A stretch of DNA of 64,000 nucleotides, taken from Aphelocoma coerulescens. Its lineage: Eukaryota > Chordata > Aves > Passeriformes > Corvidae. The notes under the pieces were generated by a model. It made no database searches, was not told the origin of the DNA, and worked only from the letters and a program-made list of their open reading frames with translations. Positions 10,245 to 56,166 of this stretch are shown here, in pieces. The position numbers and the translations under genes were made by a program. The stretch covers positions 1,178,001 through 1,242,000 of the forward strand of contig NW_027184063.1 in assembly GCF_041296385.1 (NCBI RefSeq), written 5' to 3'. The first letter of the stretch is position 1. Each line of letters starts with the position of its first letter.

Positions 10245-11322
10245 ATGGAGGTGGAGGCTGTGAGAAAGAGGAAGATGCCCCAGGACACCCAGGCAGGTGA
10301 GGAGGAAGTCCCTGCCCCTTTCCCCCTCTCTCCTGCTCCATCTCCCAGCCCAGCATCGCCCCCGGCTGCAGGACAACCCCGCTGCCGAGGCCGTCCTGCC
10401 GGGGACGGATGGGGGGGATCTCCTTCCCCTTCCCTGTGGCACGGAGGCAAATCCCATCCTCTCCTTGTCCTTCCTCCCCCAGACAAGGAGCTGAGGATGG
10501 AGCCCAGGGAGGACAAATCCCCACGGCAACACCTGGTGGAAGAGGCCATTTTGAGCAGCTCCACAGTGCAGGAATCCAACAGGGAGGAAAACCACCGGAG
10601 ATCCCGCAGGAGGAGGGGCTGCAAACGCAGCCCAGGGAGCTGTGAGGAGGAAAAACCCACCCTGTGCCGGGAAGGTGGCCGGGAGATCCAGCCAGCATTC
10701 AAACTTGGTGGTCCATGAGCAGTGTCACGCTAGGGAGAAACGCTACAAGTGCTTGGAATGTGCGAAGAGCTTCAGCCGGAGCACCAACCTGATCCACCAC
10801 CAGATGATCCATACTGGGGAACGGCCCTATGTGTGTGGGGAATGTGGGCAGAGCTTCAGACAGAGCTCCAGCCTGATCCAACACCGGTTGATTCATACTG
10901 GGGAACGGCTCTATGTGTGTGGGGAATGTGGGAAGAGCTTCAGACAGAGCTCCAGCCTGATTCACCACCAGAAGATCCACACTGGCGAGAGGCCCTACGA
11001 GTGTGGCGAATGTGGGAAGAGGTTTCAGACCAGCTCCAGAGTTCTCCTGCACCAGTGGATTCACACAGATGAGAGGCCCTTCCGCTGCCCCGACTGCGGG
11101 AAGGGCTTCAAGCGCAACTCCCACCTCATCAGGCACAAGCGCATCCACACTGGGGAGAGGCCCTACGAGTGTCCTGAGTGTGGGAAGAGCTTCAGGCAGA
11201 GACATAGTCTTAGCTGCCACCGGAGGATCCACACTGGGGAGAGGCCCTACAAGTGTCCCGAGTGTGGGAAGAGCTTTATCCAGAGCTCTCACTTGACCAG
11301 ACACCAACGGTGCCACCAGTAA
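10245..11322 (+). pseudogene. C2H2 zinc-finger protein, frameshifted (ZNF-1, copy A)
   Basis: This is a nuclear DNA-binding-type C2H2 protein of a passerine multicopy family without KRAB. Leader exon 10245-10296 encodes [17 protein letters not shown] and ends at GTGAGG. Exon 2 starts at 10483 after CCCCCAG. One extra G at about 10679-10683 (GGCCGGGAGAT against GGCCGGAGAT in the other copies) shifts the frame and gives a stop before the fingers. After the insertion seven fingers remain open in register, with CX2C-X12-HX3H spacing and TGERP linkers, to TAA 11320-11322. The finger part could be translated from an internal ATG, but the natural product is broken. The poly(A) position reads AAGAAA (11532-11537). 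Confidence 0.9.
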
Positions 11323-12382: not shown

Positions 12383-12925
12383 TACCCCTCCAAAGTCTGA
12401 GGGAAACATGGCTGCAAAGGTGGAAGCGCAGGCTCCCGACCCTGGGGGTGGAGCAGAGGAGAAACGAGCAGTCCTAGCTCCCGGCCGCAAATGGCACCGC
12501 ACCACTCCCCTCTGCCGGACAGCGGATCATCGTCCGACGGTGAAGCAGCCTCTACGGCTTTGTCACCCACAGAGCCAGAGCCAGCCAGGGCTGCCGGGGG
12601 TCAGCCTCAAGAGGAGGAGAACCACCGAGAGATGATGCATGAAGTAATCAAGAAGCTTGCTGAATTGCCTACACGTCAGGATGCGCTGGAGTCTAAGGCT
12701 TGTGAAACCACACTATCAGCACCATGGCATCCTGTGCACCCACTGGTCAAGAGAGCCACCAGAACTCCTACGTTCCCATCGGGAGAACCGAGCACAGTGC
12801 CTACGGCCCCTCCCTTCCTGCGAGAGGAGGTGCAGCCATCGCCTCCGTCAGCCCTGACGGCGAGGACTGATCCATTGTGACGGAGATGGAGTGGAGTTGT
12901 CCGTAATGCAAACATTCGGAGAGGT
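12383..12925 (+). mobile_element. Retroviral 5' flank of env segment
   Basis: This sequence joins the truncated MHC exon to the env ORF. It carries a Pro/Ser/Glu-rich ORF (12491-12880, 129 codons) without a recognised domain, possibly a leader or fused upstream viral reading frame. No LTR is evident at the left edge. Confidence 0.5.
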
Positions 12926-14275
12926 TTGCTTCTCGTAAGCATCCTAACCGGGTCCCGCGCAATGTTGACAGCAATCCAGAAGAGACAAAACATGTGGGTC
13001 ACCCTAGCTGATTTAATGGGGCAAGGCTCCATGTGTCTGAGCCTGGCCACGCCAGGGGACCCATTTTGCACCTGTTTAATCGGGGTCCCACATTTTAACC
13101 CGCAAGACTTCCGAGGGATGCTAAACAGCAGCTCCCTGATAGGGAACGGCACAAACAATGGCAAGTGTTCAGGGCTGACCGGACTCAAGCCTGCGCAGCA
13201 GCCTGCCTGCTGGCAAGGTGCATTCTTGATAAGCATCAATGTCACCATGGGAACACCAGAAGAGTTAGATCTACTGGGTTCCACAAACCAAACTGGGGAT
13301 GGTTACATGACATTCGAGCCTCCCGCTACCCGTCAATTAAATGTTAATAGGCGCCTTTGGGCCACTGTCGACCCTCTTGCAGACAGGTTTCTGAGAAACC
13401 ACGAGTCCGAAGCAATTTACAACCGAATCAACCTCGCGGGTCAAGCCCTGAAACGCCTCCCCAGTGGTACGTTCTTAATATGCGGTGACCGCGCGCGGAA
13501 TGGGGTTCCAGCCAGCCCACATGGAGGACCGTGCTACTTAGGGAAACTCACTCTGTTCCATCCAGGCCTGCATCGACTCTTAAATATCACCCACCGCACT
13601 AAAAGCAAGGTGCGGCGTTCAATCCATGAGCTCAAACATAAAAGGAATGAAGAGCCTGTCTTTTGGAGTCGTAGTATAATTTGGCAAGCATCTATGTTTG
13701 TACCTGGTGCTTCAGCAGCCAAGGCTGACGCTATTTTGCATAAACTTGCTTGCTGGGTGAAGGATGAGCTAAACATAACTTCGCAGATGCTTAATGAGCT
13801 AAGCACAGATGTTACTAGTGTTAGACATGCAGTATTACAAAATCAAGCAGCCATTGATTTTCTACTACTAGCTCACGGCCGCAGCGACGAAAAGTTCCAG
13901 AGAATGTGCTGTATGAATCTTTCTGACCACTCTGTCTCAATTCACAAGCACCTCTCTGACCTCCAGAGGGGCCTGCACAAGCTTTGGGAGAATGACAACC
14001 CTATTGGAAATGGGCTTAAGGGTCTGAGTATCACCGGATGGCTGCGTACCTTAGAAGTAAAAGGCTGCCAATTGCTATTTGTAGTTAGATTAGGCTTAAT
14101 AGTACTTGGGTGTATTTTTTCTTGCCTTAAAGTGGGGCTGAGAAAAATAATCGACCAGGCCTGGATTGCCCAAAAAGTAAACAAAGGATATGTAGAGGAA
14201 TTCCTTGTGGAATGGGGGCATATGATACCCCAGGAGAGCTTGGGCACCCCAGGGTTGTTGCAGAAGCAACCCTGA
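12926..14275 (+). CDS. env: Alpharetrovirus-like endogenous env, long open frame
   Basis: The frame of 449 codons is uninterrupted. The N-terminal part looks like a truncated surface subunit with NGT/NIT-type glycosylation sites. A basic region near residues 225-240 (KVRR, KHKR) fits the host-protease cleavage position. The transmembrane subunit follows, with the conserved core LQNQAAIDFLLLAHG, then RMCCMNLSDHS, and a hydrophobic anchor near residues 375-400. The cysteine pair after RM is present, but the partner expected seven residues earlier is not (Asp). No clear signal peptide is visible at this start and the surface part is short, so it is probably a 5'-truncated envelope. Membrane fusion ability is not expected. 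Similarity to avian leukosis-type TM is judged by eye. Confidence 0.75.
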   Translation: MLLVSILTGSRAMLTAIQKRQNMWVTLADLMGQGSMCLSLATPGDPFCTCLIGVPHFNPQDFRGMLNSSSLIGNGTNNGKCSGLTGLKPAQQPACWQGAFLISINVTMGTPEELDLLGSTNQTGDGYMTFEPPATRQLNVNRRLWATVDPLADRFLRNHESEAIYNRINLAGQALKRLPSGTFLICGDRARNGVPASPHGGPCYLGKLTLFHPGLHRLLNITHRTKSKVRRSIHELKHKRNEEPVFWSRSIIWQASMFVPGASAAKADAILHKLACWVKDELNITSQMLNELSTDVTSVRHAVLQNQAAIDFLLLAHGRSDEKFQRMCCMNLSDHSVSIHKHLSDLQRGLHKLWENDNPIGNGLKGLSITGWLRTLEVKGCQLLFVVRLGLIVLGCIFSCLKVGLRKIIDQAWIAQKVNKGYVEEFLVEWGHMIPQESLGTPGLLQKQP

Positions 14276-15071: not shown

Positions 15072-15651
15072 TGTCCTGGGGTGATGTTATGAGGCTGCTT
15101 TATTCCTTAACCCTCTGCTCAATGCCCAAGGACGCTGTGTCTTTAGGATGGACCTGGGGTGGGGCCAGAGCCACAGTACCCGGCTGAGGGTCGGTTCAAC
15201 GGCTAGAGCCCAACGGCTCAGGGGCGCCTGGGTCTTGGCAGGGCCTTGGAGGGAGTGCGCCGTGAGCGTTGTGCGGCTCCTTGGGTTTTTTGGCGTTCCA
15301 GCTGGCTGGAAAAAGGCTCTGTTGGGTTTTCTTGTTCTTTTTCCCTTCCCTCCCCCTTGCCTCACTGCCTGCCTTCCCTCTGGTCCAGGGAGCCTGCGAG
15401 TTGACCCCGGTGGGCTGGTCCAAGCCCGTGTGTCTTTTCCTTCTCTGGGAATTTGTTGTATTTCATGGTTTTTCCCCTGTTCTACCCTGCTTTGTTTGGT
15501 GTTAATAAAGAGTTTCGGGTTTTTTCCCACTTTCAGTTCTTGTGACCCACTTGTCTTACTGGTGGAGGAAATGGGGAGGTCCTTTTCCCTTTGGAGGAGA
15601 CACTCATTCCAGAGTGTTTCCTCCTGAAGTCTTGTCTCCAAAACCGAGACA
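15072..15651 (+). repeat. 5' LTR of ERV-L-like provirus (A)
   Basis: The 580-bp LTR runs TGTCCTGG to CCGAGACA. A poly(A) signal AATAAA lies in GTTAATAAAGAG (about 15500), followed by a T-rich/GT-rich stretch. Confidence 0.85.
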
Positions 15652-15657
15652 TAAATT

Positions 15658-15677
15658 TGGCACCCAACTTAAGGGGC
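15658..15677 (+). promoter_or_regulatory. Primer-binding site, tRNA-Lys-like
   Basis: TGGCACCCAACTTAAGGGGC lies six bases after the LTR end. It resembles the complement of a tRNA-Lys 3' end with a few changes. Assignment of the tRNA is tentative. Confidence 0.5.
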
Positions 15678-15886
15678 ACGTGGAATTGGGGAAATAAAAT
15701 CAAAACCATTTTGGTTTGAATCACTTTTGTATTGAGGCACAGCAGTAAGACCATGCTGCTTGATTTAATAATTTTTCTGTGGAAGCTAGCCATAAGTACA
15801 TGTCCACAGCTATGGGCAGTCGGGTCCCTGGCTTACACTTTTAGAAGTCAGAAATAAGAATCAGCACTGCCATTTTTATATGCCTG

Positions 15887-17439
15887 GTGGCAGTGATTCA
15901 TCGAAGTTTGGCTGAAGTAATGGAAGCCATGGAGAAGGTGTATGTCATGTTGTTTTCCCATTCTGGCCTTGGTAGCTTCCTTTTGGAATGTATTAGAAAT
16001 TACACCCAGCTTGTTAGGGGAAAAGCAGGGGATGATAATTCCCAGCCCTTCATCTCCTTCTTCCCCTTCAGATCTGGCACGTCACATTTTGAAAGTGTCC
16101 CGTTTCCTCTGGATGTCAAAGATGCCACCTTCTTGTTATGTTATCTAGCAGGGTTTCTCTATGTGGTCTCCAGCTTGTCTAAAATAAGGGCTGAGATTTC
16201 CAGAGGGGTTGCCCAGACACCTGCCCCAGTTGCAGAAAATCCTAAGTGCTGTGGGGTATGGGAGGACATAGGCCTGACCCTGAAGCACTTTTCTGACCCA
16301 GGAGCCTGGAACCTCCCCCCTGAACAATTTCAGAATCCAGCTGAGGTGGGGAAGTATCTGAAGGAAAACTGCAATAACAACACTGATGAAAAGGAAAAGC
16401 TCATTGCCATGTGCTGGGTCCTGGCTAATGCTAACCGCACGCTGCTGGATTCTGTAGGGCAGAAGATACAGCCAGAGGGGCAGGAGAATAAGGCAGCAGA
16501 CACCCCAATCACTCCAGCTGCAGCTAAAGCAGATGGGGAGCCTAAACCAACAACAATTGCCCCTGTCCAGAGAAAGAAACACAAAGCCAAATCCATTTGC
16601 CCACTGGATGATGATGATGGGCAGCCAGGACCTTCACAGCCAGCAGAGCAAGTGGAACCTGAAATCATTACCGAGTCCCTGTCCATAGAGAGCCTTCGTA
16701 CCCTGAGGAAGGATTGCACCCAACGGCCTGATGAAACTATATTAAGTTGGATGGTCCAAATCTGGGACACTGCAGGCAATGGTACAATTCTGGATGGCAC
16801 TGAAGCGAGGCATTTGGGGTCCCTGTCACGTGATCTAAGTATCGACCTAGGGATGACAAGGGGCCCTGAAGCTCTCAGTCTCTTGACACGGCTCTTAAGA
16901 AGGAAAGATGCCTGTGCCGGGAAGATCTCCAGAGTCAGCTAAACCCCTGCCAGACCAAGGAACAGGGGATCCAACGCCTGAGGGAACTGGCAGTGATAGA
17001 GATCATATTCTCAGATGACCAAGCAATTAGGAGCCCTGACATGGTAAAATGTACACCGGTGATGCAGCTGAAACTTGCACGACACACACCACCAGAATAC
17101 ACCCCTGCTTTAGCAATGATGACGTGGAATGACGGGGACGAGACAGTGAGTTCTGTGGTGAGGAGGCTCCGGGTGTATGCAGACACTGTGCAAGGCCCAA
17201 CACAAGCAAGAATTGCAGCTGTGGAAAAGAGTCTGTCAGAGACCATAGAGAAGATGGAAGATAGGATGGACAAGACTCATCAGAAACTCAGGAAGGAGCT
17301 GAAAGAGGGCCTTTTCCAAATCGCATCAGTGCAGAGCAGGGGCCCTGTTACCAGAAGCAGACGTCCCACGGCTAGAAGAGAGGGAACACCCCAAGAACTG
17401 AACTATGGTTCTTCCTGTGTGACAGTGGGGAAGACATGA
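15887..17439 (+). pseudogene. gag: ERV-L-like gag, frameshifted (A)
   Basis: The first open stretch (15887-16942) gives a 351-residue Gag N-terminal and central region, with a Pro/Lys-rich linker (about residues 200-245) and an acidic DDDDG run. Near 16900-16940 the frame shifts, and Gag-like sequence continues in another frame to 17439, ending in a coiled-coil-like, charged segment (EKSLSETIEKMEDRMDKTHQ). No zinc-knuckle CCHC box is seen. The start at 15887 is the first ATG; a later ATG (about 15920, MEAMEKVYVM) may be the real one, since copy B opens there. Copy B at 42511 is nearly identical but truncated. Confidence 0.75.
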
Positions 17440-21170: not shown

Positions 21171-22155
21171 ATGAACAGGTAGATCAGGCTGTGAAAATAG
21201 AGGTGTCCAAGATAGATTTGGGTTGTCAGCACAAGGGAGAGTTGTTCCTAGCTTGATGGGCCCATGATGCCTCAGGCCATTAAGGCAGAGATGCCACCTG
21301 TAAGTGGGCATAAGGCTGAGGGGTGGATCTAACCATGGACAGTATCTCCCAGGTTATCCATGGCTGTGAGACATGTGCTGCAATCAAGCAGGCCAAGCGG
21401 GTGAAGCCTCTGTGGTATGGTGGGCGATGGTCTAAATACAAGTATGGAGAGGCCTGGCAGGTTGATTACATCACACTGCCTCAAACCTGCCAAGGCAAGT
21501 GCTATGTGCTCACAATGGTGGAAGCCACCACTGGATGTTGGGGTCCCTCCCCCCTGCCATGGAGCCCTGGGAGAGGGGCCCTGGGGGGAAAAACACGGGG
21601 TTTCCCTGCCCCTGGTCAGCCTCATTCCCCATTGGTTGTTTTGTGCTTCCCTGTGTGGCCAAGAACCCTCGGGTCCCATGACTGGAGGACTTCCTCAGCT
21701 GAGCCCCAGCCATGCGGCTGGATAAATAAACATCTCTGAAACATCTACCACAAATCTGTCCATATATATTTTTTTCCACGGGACTCCTGGTTTGATATAT
21801 GCGTGTTACAGTAATCCCCGCTGTAACAACTGGATGGTTGGAGACCTACCCTGCGCCTCACGCTACTGCCCGGAACACCATCCTGGGCCTGGAAAAGCAA
21901 GTCCTTTGGAGGCATGGTACCCCTGAGAGAATTAAGTCTGACAATGGGACTCATTTCAAGAACAGCCTTATCAACACCTGGGCTAGAGAACAGGGCATTG
22001 AGTGGGTGTACCACATCCCTTACCATGCACCAGCAGCTGGGGAAATGGAAAGGTGCAATGGCCTGCTAAAAACCACCTTGAAGGTACTGGATGGGGGAAC
22101 TTTCAAAAACTGGGAGGTGTATTTAGCTAAGGCCTCATGGTTGGTGAACACCTGA
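21171..22155 (+). pseudogene. pol: ERV-L-like integrase, split by a solo LTR
   Basis: The integrase zinc-binding part shows CETCAAIKQAK (about 21370). The catalytic triad is visible as WQVDYITL (first Asp, about 21455), IKSDNGTHF (second Asp, about 21935) and GEMERCNG (Glu, about 22040). The 293-bp LTR at 21536-21828 sits between the first and second catalytic residues. The C-terminus ends at a TGA after WLVNT. No env follows; 22156-22547 is non-coding up to the polypurine tract GGAATAAGGGGTGGAA. Confidence 0.8.
21536..21828 (+). mobile_element. Solo LTR of the Y-box-element family
   Basis: A TGTTGGGG...CTGTAACA LTR of 293 bp is flanked by perfect 6-bp duplications ACTGGA (21530-21535 and 21829-21834). 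It contains GATAAATAAACATCTCTG (poly(A) signal). It is clearly of the same family as the LTRs at 40164-40439 and 42101-42389. Confidence 0.92.
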
Positions 22156-28865: not shown

Positions 28866-29712
28866 GTAAGCCAGGGATTGCTGTCAAGATCAGGAGCGTT
28901 CCTGAACCTGTTTGGATTTCCTGCTTGGAGCAGGTTGGGAAGGTTGCGGGATGAGAGAAGCAGAACAGGAGTTGTAATTCCAGAATGACAGAACATTCTG
29001 AGTCTCTGCTATTGTCCTTGTTATTGTTATTATTATTACTCCGCTCACATTGTCACTGTTAATCTGGTGCTCTCAGGTGGGCTCTGGGATCTGCAGCAGC
29101 TGAGTCAGGCTCTGCCCTTGGGATTCCTGCCAGACAGGGCTGTCCATGGGAATGGGATGTCCAAGCTTCCCTGTGCCATGTTGGGCTGTGGGCAAAGCAG
29201 TCCATGGGAAAGGGGAATGAGCTGAGCCTCCCTCCCTGAGATACCATCGTGGGTACACCCATGGCTCTCCTCGCTGTGTCCTTCCAAGAACCTCAGAGAA
29301 GCAGGAATGATGTGTGGGTAGGAAAACCTTTCCTAAAACTCACTCCTGCCATCCCTGTCCTGTGGAACTGAGAGTAAAACTGCTACCAAGCCTTTCTAGG
29401 AGGGAGTCCACTGACAAATCCTGACTCTCCAGCCTTGTCCCTCTGCCACACGGCCACAAACCCAGGGCAGCGAGGCAGCAATGGCTCCTCGACAGCCCCC
29501 ACGCACAGGCCTGGCTGCTCCTGGCACACTCAGACAGCACAAGTGGAGCTCAGGCAGGCAACTGGGTGAAGGTTTTCCCAGAGCAGGTACAAGGGTGGGG
29601 CAGTCCCAGCGGCACAGTCTGCAGGGAATGGCACAGGTTTGGCTCCAAGCAGCCTGTCCTGACTTGTCACTGTCCTTTCTCCATGAACAGGTGCCCATGG
29701 CCAGACACAGCA
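28866..29712. other. Putative OR-2 5' intron
   Basis: No gene was found. It contains a TTATTGTTATTATTATTACT run (about 29020). Compared with copy C it lacks about 410 bp (C 51842-52246). Confidence 0.5.
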
Positions 29713-30639
29713 ATGTCCAACAGCAGCTCCATCAGCCACTTCCTCCTGCTGCCATTGGCAGACACGCGGCAGCTGCAGCTCCTGCACTTCTGCCTCTTCC
29801 TGGGCATCTCCCTGGCTGCCCTCCTGGCCAACGGCCTCATCATCAGCGCCGGAGCCTGCGGCCAGCACCTGCACAGCCCCATGTTCTTCTTCCTGCTCAA
29901 CCTGGCCCTCACCGACCTGGGCTCCATCTGCACCACTGTCCCCAAAGCCATGCACAATTCCCTCTGGGGCACCAGGCACATCTCCTACACAGGATGTGCT
30001 GCTCAGGTGTTTCTGATTGTCTTCTTCCTTGGAACACAGGATTTCCTCCTCACCCTCATGTGCTACGACCGCTATGTGTCCATCTGCAAAGCCCTGCACT
30101 ACGGGACCCTCCTGGGCAGCAGAGCTTGTGCCCACATGGCAGCAGCTGCCTGGGCCAGTGGCTTTCTCACTGCTCTGCTGCACACGGCCAATACATTTTC
30201 TCTGCCCCTGTGCCAGGACAACGCCCTGGGCCAGTTCTTCTGTGAAATCCCACACATCCTCACGCTCTCCTGCTCCGACACATACCTGTGGGAATTTGGG
30301 CTTCTTGCTTTTAGTACTTCTCCTTTTTTGGGTTGTTTTGTGTTCATGCTTTTCTCCTATGTGCAGTTCTTCAGGGCCGTGCTGAGGATCCCCTCTGAGC
30401 AGGGCTGCCACAAAGCCTTTTGCATGTGCCTCCCTCACCTGGCCTCTCTGTTTCTCAGCACTGGCACATTTGCTCACCTGAAGCCCCCGTCCATCTCGTC
30501 CCCATCCCTGGATGTGGTGGTGTCAGTTCTGAACTCGGTGGTGCCTCCAGCCCTGAACCCCCTCATCTACAGCCTGAGGAACCAGGAGCTCAAGGATGCC
30601 CTGAGGAAAATGATGACTGTATCTTTTCAGAAGCAATAA
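29713..30639 (+). CDS. Olfactory receptor, family 14-like (OR-2)
   Basis: This is an intact 308-codon odorant GPCR of the plasma membrane. MSNSSS gives an N-terminal glycosylation site. TM1 has LLANGLII, TM2 starts HSPMFFFLL (about 55-62), extracellular Cys95 is present, the TM3/loop motif is MCYDRYVSIC (116-125), TM6 has KAFCMC, and TM7 has PALNPLIYSLRN. The start at 29713 fits the family; an in-frame ATG at 29683 would lie across the proposed acceptor. Against copies A and C it lacks two valines in TM6 (HLASLF against HLAVVSLF), a 6-bp in-frame deletion that may affect folding. The TAA overlaps an AATAAA. It belongs to the expanded avian OR14 clade, by motif recognition. Confidence 0.92.
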   Translation: MSNSSSISHFLLLPLADTRQLQLLHFCLFLGISLAALLANGLIISAGACGQHLHSPMFFFLLNLALTDLGSICTTVPKAMHNSLWGTRHISYTGCAAQVFLIVFFLGTQDFLLTLMCYDRYVSICKALHYGTLLGSRACAHMAAAAWASGFLTALLHTANTFSLPLCQDNALGQFFCEIPHILTLSCSDTYLWEFGLLAFSTSPFLGCFVFMLFSYVQFFRAVLRIPSEQGCHKAFCMCLPHLASLFLSTGTFAHLKPPSISSPSLDVVVSVLNSVVPPALNPLIYSLRNQELKDALRKMMTVSFQKQ

Positions 30640-39892: not shown

Positions 39893-40163
39893 ATGTTCTT
39901 GTGACCCACTTGTCTTACTGGTGGAGGAAATGGGGAGGTCCTTTTCCCTTTGGAGGAGACACTCATTCCAGAGTGTTTCCTCCTGAAGTCTTGTCTCCAA
40001 AACCAAGACATAAATTTGGCACCCAACTTAAGGGGCACATGGAATTGGGGGAAAAAAATCAAAACCATTTTGGTTTGAATCACTTTTGTATTGAGGTACA
40101 GCAGTAAGACCATGCTGTTTGATTTAATAATTTTTCTGTGGAAGCTAGCCATAAGTACATGTC

Positions 40164-40439
40164 TGTCGGGGTCTCCTCCCCCCGCCATGTAGCCCTGAGG
40201 GGAGACACGGGGTTTCCCTGCCCCTGGTCAGCCTTGTTCCCCATGGGTTGGTTTGTGTTTCCTGCGCAGGCAAGGACCCTCGGTTCCTCGTGACTGTAAC
40301 AGTTCCTGGGCAGAGCCCGGCCATGTGGCTGGGGAAATAAACATCTCTGAAACATCTATCAAGAATCCGTCTATATGTATTTCTTTTCCACGGGACTCCT
40401 GGTTTGATATAGGCGTGTTACAGTATCGCCACTGCAACA
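40164..40439 (+). repeat. 5' LTR of Y-box element
   Basis: Contains GGGGAAATAAACATCTCTG (poly(A) signal) and ends CTGCAACA. The bases after it (AAATGGTGGGGAATTGTG) should be the primer-binding site, but I could not assign a tRNA. Confidence 0.9.
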
Positions 40440-40528
40440 AAATGGTGGGGAATTGTGAGCAGAACGATCCCTGATCCCTTAGCGACCGATTTGCGTGAGT
40501 AAACCCTAGAAACTTTGGATTCCTCTTC

Positions 40529-41068
40529 TTGGTTTTGTTTTGCTATTCCATATCTAAACTATGGAGGAACCGTGGGAAGACTCTTGGCTTTCAGAGCCGC
40601 ATATGGACATTTATCAAACTTAAAATGATTCTTGAACAACGATTTGTAAATTTTAGCTTGATTCAAGCTCAAAAAGAACTGAAACACTTCCTGGCATGGT
40701 TGTTTAAGAACTTTTTCTATGTTTCTTGGGATTTAATTCTTACCAAGGGCTTTTGGAAGACCGTTTGGACACAGTTAATATTTGAGTCAAAATATATGCC
40801 GATGGAAGAATATTTTCGTGAATATTATTTAATTACCGAGACTGTTGAGCAATGTCAGCTGTGTCCTGGTGAAGGGAAGCCTGGCTCAGGGACCGTGCGA
40901 CCCAGGGCGTGCACCGAGCGCTCTGCGAGCAGCAGCGAGGCAGCTCCCGTGCACGGGCAGAGCCACGCGAGCCGCAGTGTCGGTGGCGGAGCGGGGAGCG
41001 GCGGGAGCGGCGCGGCCCAGCGGTGCCCGCCCGGCCCCGTGCAGCGCGTGGTGGAGCGAGCCCCGTGA
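40529..41068 (+). CDS. Gag-like N-terminal ORF running into GC-rich sequence
   Basis: The ORF has 179 codons. Residues about 33-100 (from MILEQRFVNF, with LKHFLAWLFKNFFYVSWDL) look like a retroviral matrix domain with aromatic helices. From about residue 115 the frame enters CpG-rich DNA and becomes Ser/Gly/Ala-rich, with no domain. The switch at about 40880 marks the likely fusion point between viral and captured sequence. Assignment as Gag is by pattern and position after the 5' LTR. Confidence 0.6.
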   Translation: MVLFCYSISKLWRNRGKTLGFQSRIWTFIKLKMILEQRFVNFSLIQAQKELKHFLAWLFKNFFYVSWDLILTKGFWKTVWTQLIFESKYMPMEEYFREYYLITETVEQCQLCPGEGKPGSGTVRPRACTERSASSSEAAPVHGQSHASRSVGGGAGSGGSGAAQRCPPGPVQRVVERAP

Positions 41069-41345
41069 ACGCCTGAACGAGAGGGGCGGCGCGCGGGCAG
41101 CGGCTGGCGGCGGTGGTGGTAGAGCGGAGCTGCGCCCAGCCGTAACGCGCGCTGGAGCAGGGCATGGGGGGGTCATCGCTTGGGGGCGCAGAGACATTGG
41201 TGCAGCCCCAGGCAGCGGCAGCAAAGCTGTGACCAGAGGAGGCGACGTACGGCAAACGGAGCGGCGCAGCGTGGCCCGGCCCGCGCGGCCACGAAGCTGA
41301 CCCCGGGAAAAGCGCGCAGGAACCAGCAGCGCAGACAATTCCAAC
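40880..41345. other. CpG-rich segment, likely captured 5' UTR
   Basis: Very GC-rich with many CG dinucleotides (GGAGCGGCGGGAGCGGCGCG-type runs), unlike the surrounding DNA. It leads into the cold-shock ORF and resembles the 5' UTR of a housekeeping gene. Its origin is inferred from composition and position. Confidence 0.6.
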
Positions 41346-41903
41346 ATGGGAGCGACTGAAAGAGAGAGCAAAGACACAGCGAGACAGAAAACAGCAGCCA
41401 CTCGGAAAAAGGAAAAGACCATAGTAGCTAAGAACTTAGGGATAGGGAAATGGTATAATGTTAAACAAAATTATGGTTTTATAACAAGATGTGATAACCA
41501 GCAAGACATATTGGTGCATAGAACTGCTATTAAAAAGAATAACCCTGAAAATTGCATCCCAAGCTTGGGAGATGGAGAGGTGGTGGAATTCAAAATCATA
41601 CAAGGTAGAAAAGGGTTACAAGCATCGCAGGTCACTGGGCCTGATGGTGTTCCTGTGAAAGGCAGTATATATGCTAAAAATCGTAGTCATGTTAGACAAT
41701 ATCTCCTTGGTAGGCCCCCCTACAGTCTCCCTTTCCTAATCCCACCTTTCCCTTTTACCCTATGTCCTATTACCCCCAGTGTATTCCCAATCCGTTTTTC
41801 CATCCATGGTTTCCCTCACAAAACCATACCTTTGCCAATTGTTTCCCCAAAAATCCCTTTCCAGTGCCGAGTGGGGGATGAAAAGGGGGAGGGAAGAAAT
41901 TAA
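41346..41903 (+). CDS. Y-box-type cold-shock domain protein inside retroelement
   Basis: The ORF is intact at 185 codons. Residues about 29-100 form a cold-shock domain: GIGKWYNVKQNYGFITR includes RNP1 (NYGFITR, 42-48), and DILVHRTAIKKNNP holds RNP2 (54-58). GDGEVVEF and VTGPDGVPVKGS complete the fold, the order seen in vertebrate YBX proteins, which bind single-stranded nucleic acid and mRNA. The N-terminus is short and Lys/Arg-rich. The C-terminus (from about 125) is Pro/Phe/Ile-rich and lacks the alternating basic/acidic tail of host Y-box proteins. There is no intron in the domain, consistent with capture from mRNA. Sense to the LTR. Whether it is expressed is unknown; it could instead be an old accessory gene of this ERV lineage. 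Confidence 0.88.
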   Translation: MGATERESKDTARQKTAATRKKEKTIVAKNLGIGKWYNVKQNYGFITRCDNQQDILVHRTAIKKNNPENCIPSLGDGEVVEFKIIQGRKGLQASQVTGPDGVPVKGSIYAKNRSHVRQYLLGRPPYSLPFLIPPFPFTLCPITPSVFPIRFSIHGFPHKTIPLPIVSPKIPFQCRVGDEKGEGRN

Positions 41904-42100
41904 ACCCTCTCCTGCCTCAGTTTCCCCACAAAGCATGCTCAGAGAGTTCTGTCTCCCTTCTGTCAGCCCTAAGATGTTCCACAGAATCTGTTTGGACATT
42001 TAAAGACTCAGGAGGGTGGCTTGTTTTGTTTTCAAAACTGTTCTTGTTATGTTTATCCAGTTGTCTCCATTCTCCTTTTATTAAAATAAAATGGGGGAAA
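41904..42100 (+). other. 3' non-coding part of Y-box element with polypurine tract
   Basis: T-rich sequence ends TTAAAATAAAATGGGGGAAA directly against the 3' LTR: a polypurine tract for plus-strand priming. Confidence 0.75.
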
Positions 42101-42389
42101 TGTCGGGGTCTCCTCCCCCTGCCATGTAGCCCTGGGAGCCTTGAGGGCACAGACACACGGGGTTTCCCTGCCTCTGGTCAGCCTCATTCCCCATGGGTTG
42201 GTTTGTGTTTCCTGCGCGGGCAAGGACCCTCGGTTCCCCGTGACTGTAACAGTTCCTCAGCAGAGCCCGGCCGTGCGGCTGGGGAAATAAACATCTCTGA
42301 AATATCTATCAAGAATCCGTCTATATGTATTTCTTTTCCATGGGACTCCTGGTTTGGTATAGGCGTGTTACATTATCCCCACTGCAACA
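42101..42389 (+). repeat. 3' LTR of Y-box element
   Basis: Pairs with 40164-40439. It has about 13 extra bases near position 36 (GAGCCTTGAGGGCACAG region). Confidence 0.92.
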
Positions 42390-42510
42390 CATGTCCACAG
42401 CTATGGGCAGTCGTGTCCCTGGCTTACACTTTTAGAAGTCAGAAATAAGAATCAGCACTGCCATTTTAATATGCCTGGTGGCAGTGATTCATTGAAGTTT
42501 TGCTGGAGTA

Positions 42511-43473
42511 ATGGAAGCCATGGAGAAGGTGTATGTCATGTTGTTTTCCCATTCTGGCCTTGGTAGCTTCCTTTTGGAATGTATTCGCAATTACACCCAG
42601 CTTGTTAGGGGAAAAGCAGGGGATGATAACTCCCAGCCCTTCATCTCCTTCTTCCCCTTCAGATCTGGCACGTCACCTTTTGAAAGTGTCCAGTTTCCCC
42701 TGGATGTCAAAGATGCCACCTCCTTGTTATGTTATCTAGCAGGGTTTCTCTATGTGGTCTCCAGCTTGTCTAAAATAAGGGCTGAGATTTCCAGAGGGGT
42801 GGCCCAGACACCTGCCCCAGTTGCAGAAAATCCTAAGTGCTGTGGGGTACGGGAGGACATAGGCCTGACCCTGAAGCACTTTTCTGACCCAGGAGCCTGG
42901 AACCTCCCCCCTGAACAATTTCAGAATCCAGCTGAGGTGGGGAAGTATCTGAAGGAAAACTGCAATAACAACACTGATGAAAAGGAAAAGCTCATTGCCA
43001 TGTGCTGGGTCCTGGCTAATGCTAACCGCACGCTGCTGGATTCTGTAGGGCAGAAGATACAGCCAGAGGGGCAGGAGAATAAGGCAGCAGACACCCCAAT
43101 CACTCCAGCTGCAGCTAAAGCAGATGGGGAGCCTAAACCAACAACAATTGCCCCTGTCCAGAGAAAGAAACACAAAGCCAAATCCATTTGCCCGCTGGAT
43201 GATGATGGGCAGCCAGGACCTTCACAGCCAGCAGAGCAAGTGAAACCTGAAATCATTACCGAGTCCCTGTCCATAGAGGGCCTTCGTACCCTGAGGAAGG
43301 ATTACACCCAACGGCCTAATGAAACTATATTAAGTTGGATGGTCCGAATCTGGGACACTGCAAGCGATGGTATATTCTGGATGGCACTGAAGCGAGGCAT
43401 TTGGGGTCCCTGTCACTTGATCTAAGTATCGACCAAGGGATGACAAGGGGCCCTGAAGCTCTCAGTCTCTGGA
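42511..43473 (+). pseudogene. gag: ERV-L-like gag, truncated (B)
   Basis: Near-identical to 15920-16890 of copy A. The ORF of 304 residues stays in frame until a small indel near 43365-43375 leads to a TAA at about 43425. Gag-like sequence runs to 43473, then is replaced by inverted leader. One codon of the acidic DDDD run is missing. Confidence 0.8.
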
Positions 43474-54840: not shown

Positions 54841-55125
54841 AGTCCCTGACAGCTTTATGCCTTGGCTCCATGAGGTTCCATAACCTCACTATGGACTCAG
54901 TCTCAAGCTGCATTAGGCCCTGCTCTGTCCCACTGGATGCTTAATTCCATGAGGTTCCATTTGGTGGCTGTGGTCTCCTGGTTCCATGAGGCTCCAATGT
55001 GACATGTTGGAGCCTTGTTCCAGGAGATTCCATAGAGTCACAATGGACTCCTGTGTTCACATAGGCCCCACGGTGTCACATCAGAGCCTTGGTTCCATGA
55101 GTGGCAGAACCCACATTTTGGCATT
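54841..55125. repeat. 37-bp minisatellite (C, block 1)
   Basis: Counterpart of 1741-2030. Confidence 0.8.
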
Positions 55126-56166
55126 CTTGCAGTTTGTCCAGGAACTGTACAAACGACTCTGCCAGACCCTGTAGGATCTTAGCAAAAGACACGTTAGCAT
55201 CAATACCCGTCCCCGGGAGTTGCCGCAGGGCTTGCCGGGCTAGGCGGGTGATGATATCATAGACGTCACACAGATAGCCTGTCTGCGCTGTAGGGACTGC
55301 GTACGGACCCTCTCCGCTCAGCTGTGCGGCAACGATGGGTGGATTTCTGTCTCGCAGCACTTCCGCCTGGGTAGTACACAGCTCACGGTAGTCGGTGAGC
55401 CAGCCTGCAAACTGCGCCAATGTCAAAATCATTCTCATTATGCTTTTGCAGTCATTAGGTACGAGGACGTACACGGTACTTATGGACTCCAGGTAAGTTA
55501 GGACATCACAGAAGGATACGCCGCTTTCCTTTACTAGCATCCTCAGTTCTTTGATTACTTTATAGTCTAGTTCCCTGTAGGCCGGGCGTTGCTTCGGCGC
55601 ATATATAACCGGACAGGCAGTAACGACCGCCAGGTCGTTCTCCTCCATCGCGGCTTCCCTACACTTCCGCCAGTGCTGGGTTACAGTGTCATCATTCTGG
55701 GCAGGAAGGGAGTCCGATGCTTGCTTGCGGTCTGGGACTTCCGTGCCAAGGGGGCCAACTGTGTAGGGATTTTTTTTATCATGTAAATCAATTCCGTAGG
55801 GGATGGGAGAATCTCGGGGTAGCCGGATGCATTGGATACAGGTTCTGGTGGCACTGAGGGCTCAGGGGAATCAGCTTCTGAAGCCGCGTAATGGCCAACA
55901 TCCATTCGACTTCACTTAAAGACCGCCATGATCGTTCCCCATGTAGCGAGGTGCCTGCAAGCTTTGGCATCGCTGTCCCTGGCGATATCAAAAAGTCTCT
56001 GCCCTACCACTTGCCAGGCTTCTGATTGAAGGGGCCCACTGAAGGGAAAATCTCTAACCTGATCGGACAACCAGTCCAGCAGGGTGCTTAATTTCACATC
56101 AGCAATATCAGTAGTTTGCCGATGTAGGAGCCGCCATACAGGTCCAATCTCCTTCTTTTTTCCAGG
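55126..56166 (-). pseudogene. Betaretrovirus/ERV-K-like gag fragment (C)
   Basis: Minus-strand copy of the A fragment, better preserved in the capsid part. A 190-codon frame (55648-55076) runs from YKVIKELRMLVKESGV through LAQFAGWLTDYREL, which A has lost, to FAKILQGLAESF. The frame is broken near 55750 and 55915. The LTR and leader are absent: the sequence passes at about 56167 directly to the flank. Confidence 0.75.

Follow-up and report, generated by a model that had tools for sequence, protein, structure and literature searches.

A Y-box cold-shock domain probably captured by a corvid LTR retroelement, with relatives in which it is predicted to be fused to a Gag matrix-like domain

Introduction

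Host coding sequences placed behind the matrix part of Gag are known from the helper-dependent avian sarcoma viruses of the Gag-onc type (e.g., Gag-Crk P47 of CT10) and, to our knowledge, the genes that retroviruses have captured are growth, adhesion or signalling genes. Endogenous retroviruses (ERVs) have made such captures as well: in crocodilians they took up KIT-ligand (CrocERV29), located between pol and env, and nectin3 (CrocERV31), at the expense of env (PMC4299795). In crows, Weissensteiner et al. (2020) described a 2.25-kb full-length ERVK insertion of the subfamily corCorLTRK1b, with a long terminal repeat (LTR) of 296 bp, that lies 20 kb upstream of NDP, at chr1 112,179,329 of the hooded crow, and is linked to the grey plumage of that bird; according to that paper, it is homozygous in all genotyped hooded crows (9 with long reads, 61 with short reads), and its presence is associated with reduced NDP expression (PMC7341801). 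Here we analyse an LTR element at 40164-42389 of a 64-kb stretch of the scrub jay Aphelocoma coerulescens (contig NW_027184063.1, positions 1,178,001 to 1,242,000; the window, in what follows), whose interior carries a Y-box cold-shock domain (CSD).

Comparison with these systems shows both common and distinctive traits. Like the Gag-onc viruses, the element family has a host coding sequence fused behind a predicted Gag matrix-like domain, in a provirus that would also be helper-dependent; unlike them, it is endogenous and multi-copy, and what it captured is an RNA-binding domain rather than an oncogene. As in the crocodilian ERVs, a host mRNA appears to have been captured within LTRs (there, the nectin3 capture predates a speciation; PMC4299795), although in the present family the captured sequence adjoins a matrix-like domain in one fusion and pol has been lost. 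The cellular relatives YBX1, YBX2 and YBX3 have the same cold-shock domain with four stacking residues and carry basic/acidic C-terminal repeats, which the element fusion lacks, having a Pro/aromatic tail instead. No description of a Y-box domain within an ERV was found in the titles and abstract openings of the matches listed in the literature searched.

The insertion

The joined flanks of the element align to another segment of the window (1317 of 1349 columns identical) in which CATGTC occurs once, and this uninterrupted paralogue of the target site marks the element as a genuine insertion. Chance or an assembly artefact was ruled out as an explanation by this empty site and by a solo LTR of the same family, flanked on both sides by ACTGGA, so that the window holds two independent 6-bp target duplications (Table 1). 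Duplications of that length are a trait of class II retroelements and, together with a Gag of alpha/betaretroviral type according to the predicted matrix fold, they assign the element to class II (ERVK-type).

The first-pass annotation had listed matching LTRs, perfect CATGTC duplications and a polypurine tract, and all of these stand: the LTRs are identical in 258 of 276 aligned columns (93.5%, their lengths differing by 13 bp), the duplication is present at both ends and the tract, interrupted by one T, adjoins the 3' LTR. With 18 differences over 276 bp, the formula of the crow paper (PMC7341801) would give an LTR age of ~2.1 million years. As a side observation, the LTRs diverge at non-CpG sites (12/246) more than the duplicated flanks do (22/1311; Fisher P 0.007), though the insertion must postdate the duplication. 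This excess may stem from gene conversion, either between the duplicates or between elements.

The interior measures 1661 bp, and its part 40561-41872 aligns to the 440-amino-acid fusion described below, leaving 121 and 228 bp; since this offers no space for pol, the element is non-autonomous. The 64-kb window contains no tRNA gene with which the presumed primer-binding site could be compared, and a promoter scan gave no match, its model being bacterial and thus uninformative for bird DNA.

A decayed copy of a predicted matrix-CSD fusion

The 185-codon open reading frame (ORF) of the window copy matches Pfam CSD (E 2.2e-17) and the solved domains of YBX1 and YBX2 (E about 1e-30), and by these matches it holds a Y-box-type cold-shock domain, as first annotated. 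That annotation had also called the ORF intact, which is correct in so far as it is open and sense to the LTRs, but not relative to the family frame, nor at the position of F85, where it encodes Leu. The reference for that frame is P0074, a protein of 440 amino acids that represents a cluster of 24 predicted Corvus moneduloides proteins and reads, in a single open frame, from a MEEPWEDSW start through an N-domain, a basic linker, the CSD and a Pro/aromatic tail ending in PFPMPSGG. P0074 is colinear with the window at 40561-41872 by tblastn, but over three frames (residues 1-18 in frame 1, 17-114 in frame 2 with 96% identity, 116-434 in frame 3 and 387-438 in frame 2 with 94%), the family frame being broken at three places, once within the N-domain and once on either side of the CSD. 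From this alignment and the stop that the linker has in the CSD frame, the 185 codons are, as judged by sequence, a degraded remnant of the 440-amino-acid fusion with the tail in the wrong frame, and the decayed element would not be expected to yield the full protein. The gag-like N-terminus that had been noticed is thus real, but lies here in another frame than the CSD. Its 96% identity to P0074 agrees with a corvid as the probable source of the window. Composition also changes along the element: GC is 0.74 across the linker (40881-41345), and the CpG observed/expected ratio is 1.0 there vs 0.23 in the CSD part, as if both came from sequences of different origin.

In protein searches, C. moneduloides proteins ranked well above true Y-box proteins. 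The family comprises at least 12 clusters with at least 38 member sequences (summed) in this species; these are database-predicted and not measured proteins, they were taken from the best 120 of the 139 proteins that passed, and the organism names are those of the cluster representatives only. One A. coerulescens protein belongs to the family, P0079, of 437 amino acids, which is 36% identical to P0074 over the full length and shares with it 55 of 91 CSD residues, both being predicted to extend from matrix to tail; P0003, P0008 and P0082 were further close relatives among the matches listed. The order matrix-linker-CSD-tail is therefore shared by the 24-member P0074 cluster and a scrub-jay protein, with parts of it in other crow proteins. 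As evidence of gene transduction, P0074 provides a single frame that is colinear with the LTR-flanked interior in the window, its own LTRs not being seen, and in P0006 the CSD continues into sequence resembling (by eye) an LTR and the leader that follows it. P0006 also combines a linker of the old type with a CSD of the young type, and P0081 an N-domain of the young type with a CSD of the old type, so these two may be recombinants, but the gene models could mislead. A search of viral contigs found no relative, and one of genome contigs returned 27 loci, all of them from bacterial records and left out of the analysis.

The zebra finch (Taeniopygia guttata) protein P0156 and the protein P0083 contain a related, divergent CSD and, by eye, no matrix-like domain; P0083 has the Pro/aromatic tail in common with scrub-jay P0079, which suggests a wider songbird family. 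From these related domains and the common tail, the capture may predate the crow lineage.

The viral character of the N-domain comes from structure prediction. A protein search with this domain returned one match, P0157, out of two candidates, and the modelled N-domain of this relative is predicted to fold like the Gag matrix of Rous sarcoma virus, Gag-Crk being the best viral-structure match. Pfam and NCBIfam recognise no Gag family in the N-domain, and no retroviral chain reached an E below 1.3 when the family was used for a PDB profile search. In its core, a gene-transducing ERV that is defective and bears a Y-box domain, the first-pass annotation is borne out, and many relatives were found: the domain has its Pfam match and belongs to a multi-member family, rather than to a single locus with host introns and flanks. 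Its view that a host domain replaces gag-pol-env must be amended, as the RNA-binding domain, probably a captured one, is in the relatives fused in frame behind a predicted Gag matrix.

RNA-binding residues and origin of the domain

In YB-1, W65, F74, F85 and H87 stack on four bases and Ala at any of them disrupts binding, Lys64 is likewise essential, and CAUC is the preferred motif (PMC7226217). Among 17 aligned element rows, the stacking quartet is kept in 15 of the 16 that cover it; position 85 (YB-1 numbering) is Leu in the window copy. Targeting of the element's own RNA via CAUC or CACC was considered as well, and is unsupported by the motif counts in its sense strand (given below).

The 17 element CSDs are 52-68% identical to zebrafish YBX1, and zebrafish YBX1 and the PDB YBX2 chain are similarly identical to them (at most 6 points apart). 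A CSD tree of 31 rows, containing no bird Y-box gene and built after dropping P0008 and P0085, groups the corvid elements with a support of 85/88, groups the 13 host Y-box rows with 99/97 and indicates no parent gene. The element CSD is uninterrupted where the fish-like proteins P0068-P0070 seem, by eye, to read through introns, and for this reason a spliced host Y-box mRNA is its putative source.

Relation to the NDP insertion

Four of the six primers of the crow paper were compared with the window, two in-element and two flanking. Both in-element primers match the element at 19/20 positions and once in 64 kb, P_L_R_2 at 41801-41820, within the part that encodes the tail of the fusion (by eye HPWFPSQ when read in the family frame), and P_R_F_1 at 40458-40477 on the minus strand, in the leader; neither matched within 3 mismatches in 100 shuffles. 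The two flanking primers have no match in the window. The sizes fit too: the 1661-bp interior plus two 296-bp LTRs makes 2253 bp, vs the published 2.25 kb, and with the amplicon lengths given in the paper, 659 and 564 bp, the flanks come to 63 and 230 bp.

The element thus resembles corCorLTRK1b in its ERVK type, full length, LTR length (276 and 289 bp here) and primer geometry, and differs from it in that the NDP insertion occupies another site and that the captured gene is absent from the main text of that paper, which mentions no Y-box, cold-shock or open reading frame (PMC7341801). The NDP insertion is probably another full-length copy of the same family. No further paper in the literature searched names corCorLTRK1b. 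The initial impression that no such avian element had been described holds, accordingly, only in part: the repeat very probably belongs to a known subfamily, while its captured gene went unmentioned in that main text.

Features of the element and its surroundings

The window is rich in large duplications, direct and inverted, with blocks of up to 5.8 kb that are mostly 84-97% identical. Of the duplicated frames one per kind was examined, and the one at 10555-11319 is a C2H2 zinc-finger array, the one at 29425-30636 an olfactory receptor. Other retroviral remains are also present. An open frame of ERV-like character lies downstream of the element (42496-43425); it was taken for gag by resemblance and has no Pfam match. 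An Env-like frame of an alpharetrovirus-like ERV (12881-14275; Pfam Avian_gp85, E 1e-11) precedes a gag-like frame (15845-16942) that Pfam does not recognise and that has the empty site immediately before it, and an open frame of 261 amino acids on the minus strand (55076-55861) contains a Gag_p24 capsid domain (E 1.4e-25), being another ERV fragment.

Table 1. Features of the LTR element and related sites in the window.
Feature	Position	Strand	Basis or remark
LTR element, whole	40164-42389	+	2,226 bp; 6-bp target duplications
Target-site duplication CATGTC, left	40158-40163	.	sequence; empty paralogous site
5' LTR (TG...CA; AATAAA at 40336)	40164-40439	+	276 bp
Leader, with TGG-starting presumed primer-binding site near 40443	40440-40560	+	by eye
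Predicted Gag matrix-like N-domain, split over two frames (P0074 residues 1-18, 17-114)	40561-40906	+	tblastn; fold match of relative P0157
GC-rich basic linker, one stop in CSD frame here	40908-41345	+	tblastn with P0074
185-codon ORF; cold-shock domain at residues 32-98	41346-41903	+	Pfam CSD; sense to LTRs
Pro/aromatic family tail, frame differs from CSD here (P0074 residues 387-438, 94%)	41717-41872	+	tblastn
Polypurine-rich tract AAAATGGGGGAAA	42088-42100	+	adjoins 3' LTR; contains one T
3' LTR (AATAAA at 42286)	42101-42389	+	289 bp
Target-site duplication CATGTC, right	42390-42395	.	empty paralogous site
Paralogous empty site, single CATGTC	15536-16888	+	duplicated segment in window
Solo LTR, same family, 83-84% identical, ACTGGA both sides	21536-21828	+	within window

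Possible mechanism and alternatives

The comparisons show, at the level of sequence and prediction, an insertion, a family of fusions and the retention of RNA-stacking residues. How would such an element spread? A helper retrovirus of class II (ERVK-type) would supply particles, reverse transcriptase and integrase to an element free of pol and env; the matrix part of the fusion would carry the protein to the assembly site of the helper; and the cold-shock domain, presumably acquired from a spliced host Y-box mRNA, would bind the element RNA in place of the nucleocapsid of a normal Gag. A captured Y-box domain is plausible as a tool of assembly, since a betaretroviral Gag is reported to recruit cellular YB-1 when it assembles (PMC4486188). 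Taken as a whole, a helper-dependent LTR element whose matrix/cold-shock fusion acts as a stripped-down Gag, with the NDP copy in the same family, is the best explanation we can offer, though a tentative one that falls a little short of an even balance. The more pointed proposal that a songbird retroelement rebuilt Gag from a viral matrix and a Y-box domain serving as nucleocapsid, spread as a parasite of helper ERVs and left one of its copies as the hooded-crow plumage insertion is doubtful, and we lean against it.

Several observations weigh against the stripped-down Gag. The matrix match is weak (Foldseek E-value 0.32), the N-domain model is moderate (pLDDT 72) with a Z in the range cautioned for helical bundles, and the full-length model is poor (pLDDT 36). 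Pfam recognises only the CSD in P0074 and no capsid domain that would bring the fusion into helper particles. The crow fusion proteins are database predictions, the primer-binding site is presumed from a TGG read by eye after the LTR, and the link to NDP is based on primers and size and not on the sequence of the insertion. As to RNA binding, P0080, an older copy, has Glu in place of Lys64, and the element sense RNA shows no enrichment of CAUC, with 7 occurrences vs 7.08 expected, and a depletion of CACC (2 vs 7.81 expected; 499 of 500 shuffles as high).

These motif counts would suit a gene that is only a passenger, in elements whose RNA is packaged by the helper via the leader, with a fusion useless for copying and open crow frames that reflect youth; the window copy, which kept its LTRs and leader despite losing its frame, fits this too. 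However, P0074 and P0079 are both predicted to run from matrix to tail in spite of their divergent CSDs, and the stacking quartet is nearly always kept, for which we consider the passenger unlikely, though it deserves to be taken seriously. The fusion could also act on the host cell, for instance by competing with cellular Y-box proteins and thereby raising translation or stability of the element RNA or disturbing mRNA storage in germ cells. A matrix-like domain would be purposeless in such a scheme, and we rate it as clearly improbable, even if inheritance of the element requires movement in the germ line and Y-box proteins are abundant in germ cells, where they inhibit translation of dozens of mRNAs (PMC7226217). 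Finally, an ordinary processed Y-box pseudogene could have landed by chance between two LTRs, leaving a CSD that is uninterrupted and CpG-poor compared with the linker. This candidate was rejected and has hardly any likelihood left, as it is contradicted by the recurrent multi-copy fusion in crow and scrub jay, by the passage of P0006 from CSD into LTR-like sequence and by LTRs and target duplications that enclose the whole unit.

Implications

With a captured RNA-binding domain joined to a matrix-like one, in a family that reads open in many predicted crow proteins, these elements would constitute a natural experiment on whether nucleocapsid can be replaced by a host RNA-binding domain. If the NDP insertion is one of the copies, a captured RNA-binding gene would, moreover, be located at one of the best-known speciation loci of birds, and the crow NDP insertion would thereby get a predicted gene content, relevant to how it lowers NDP expression.
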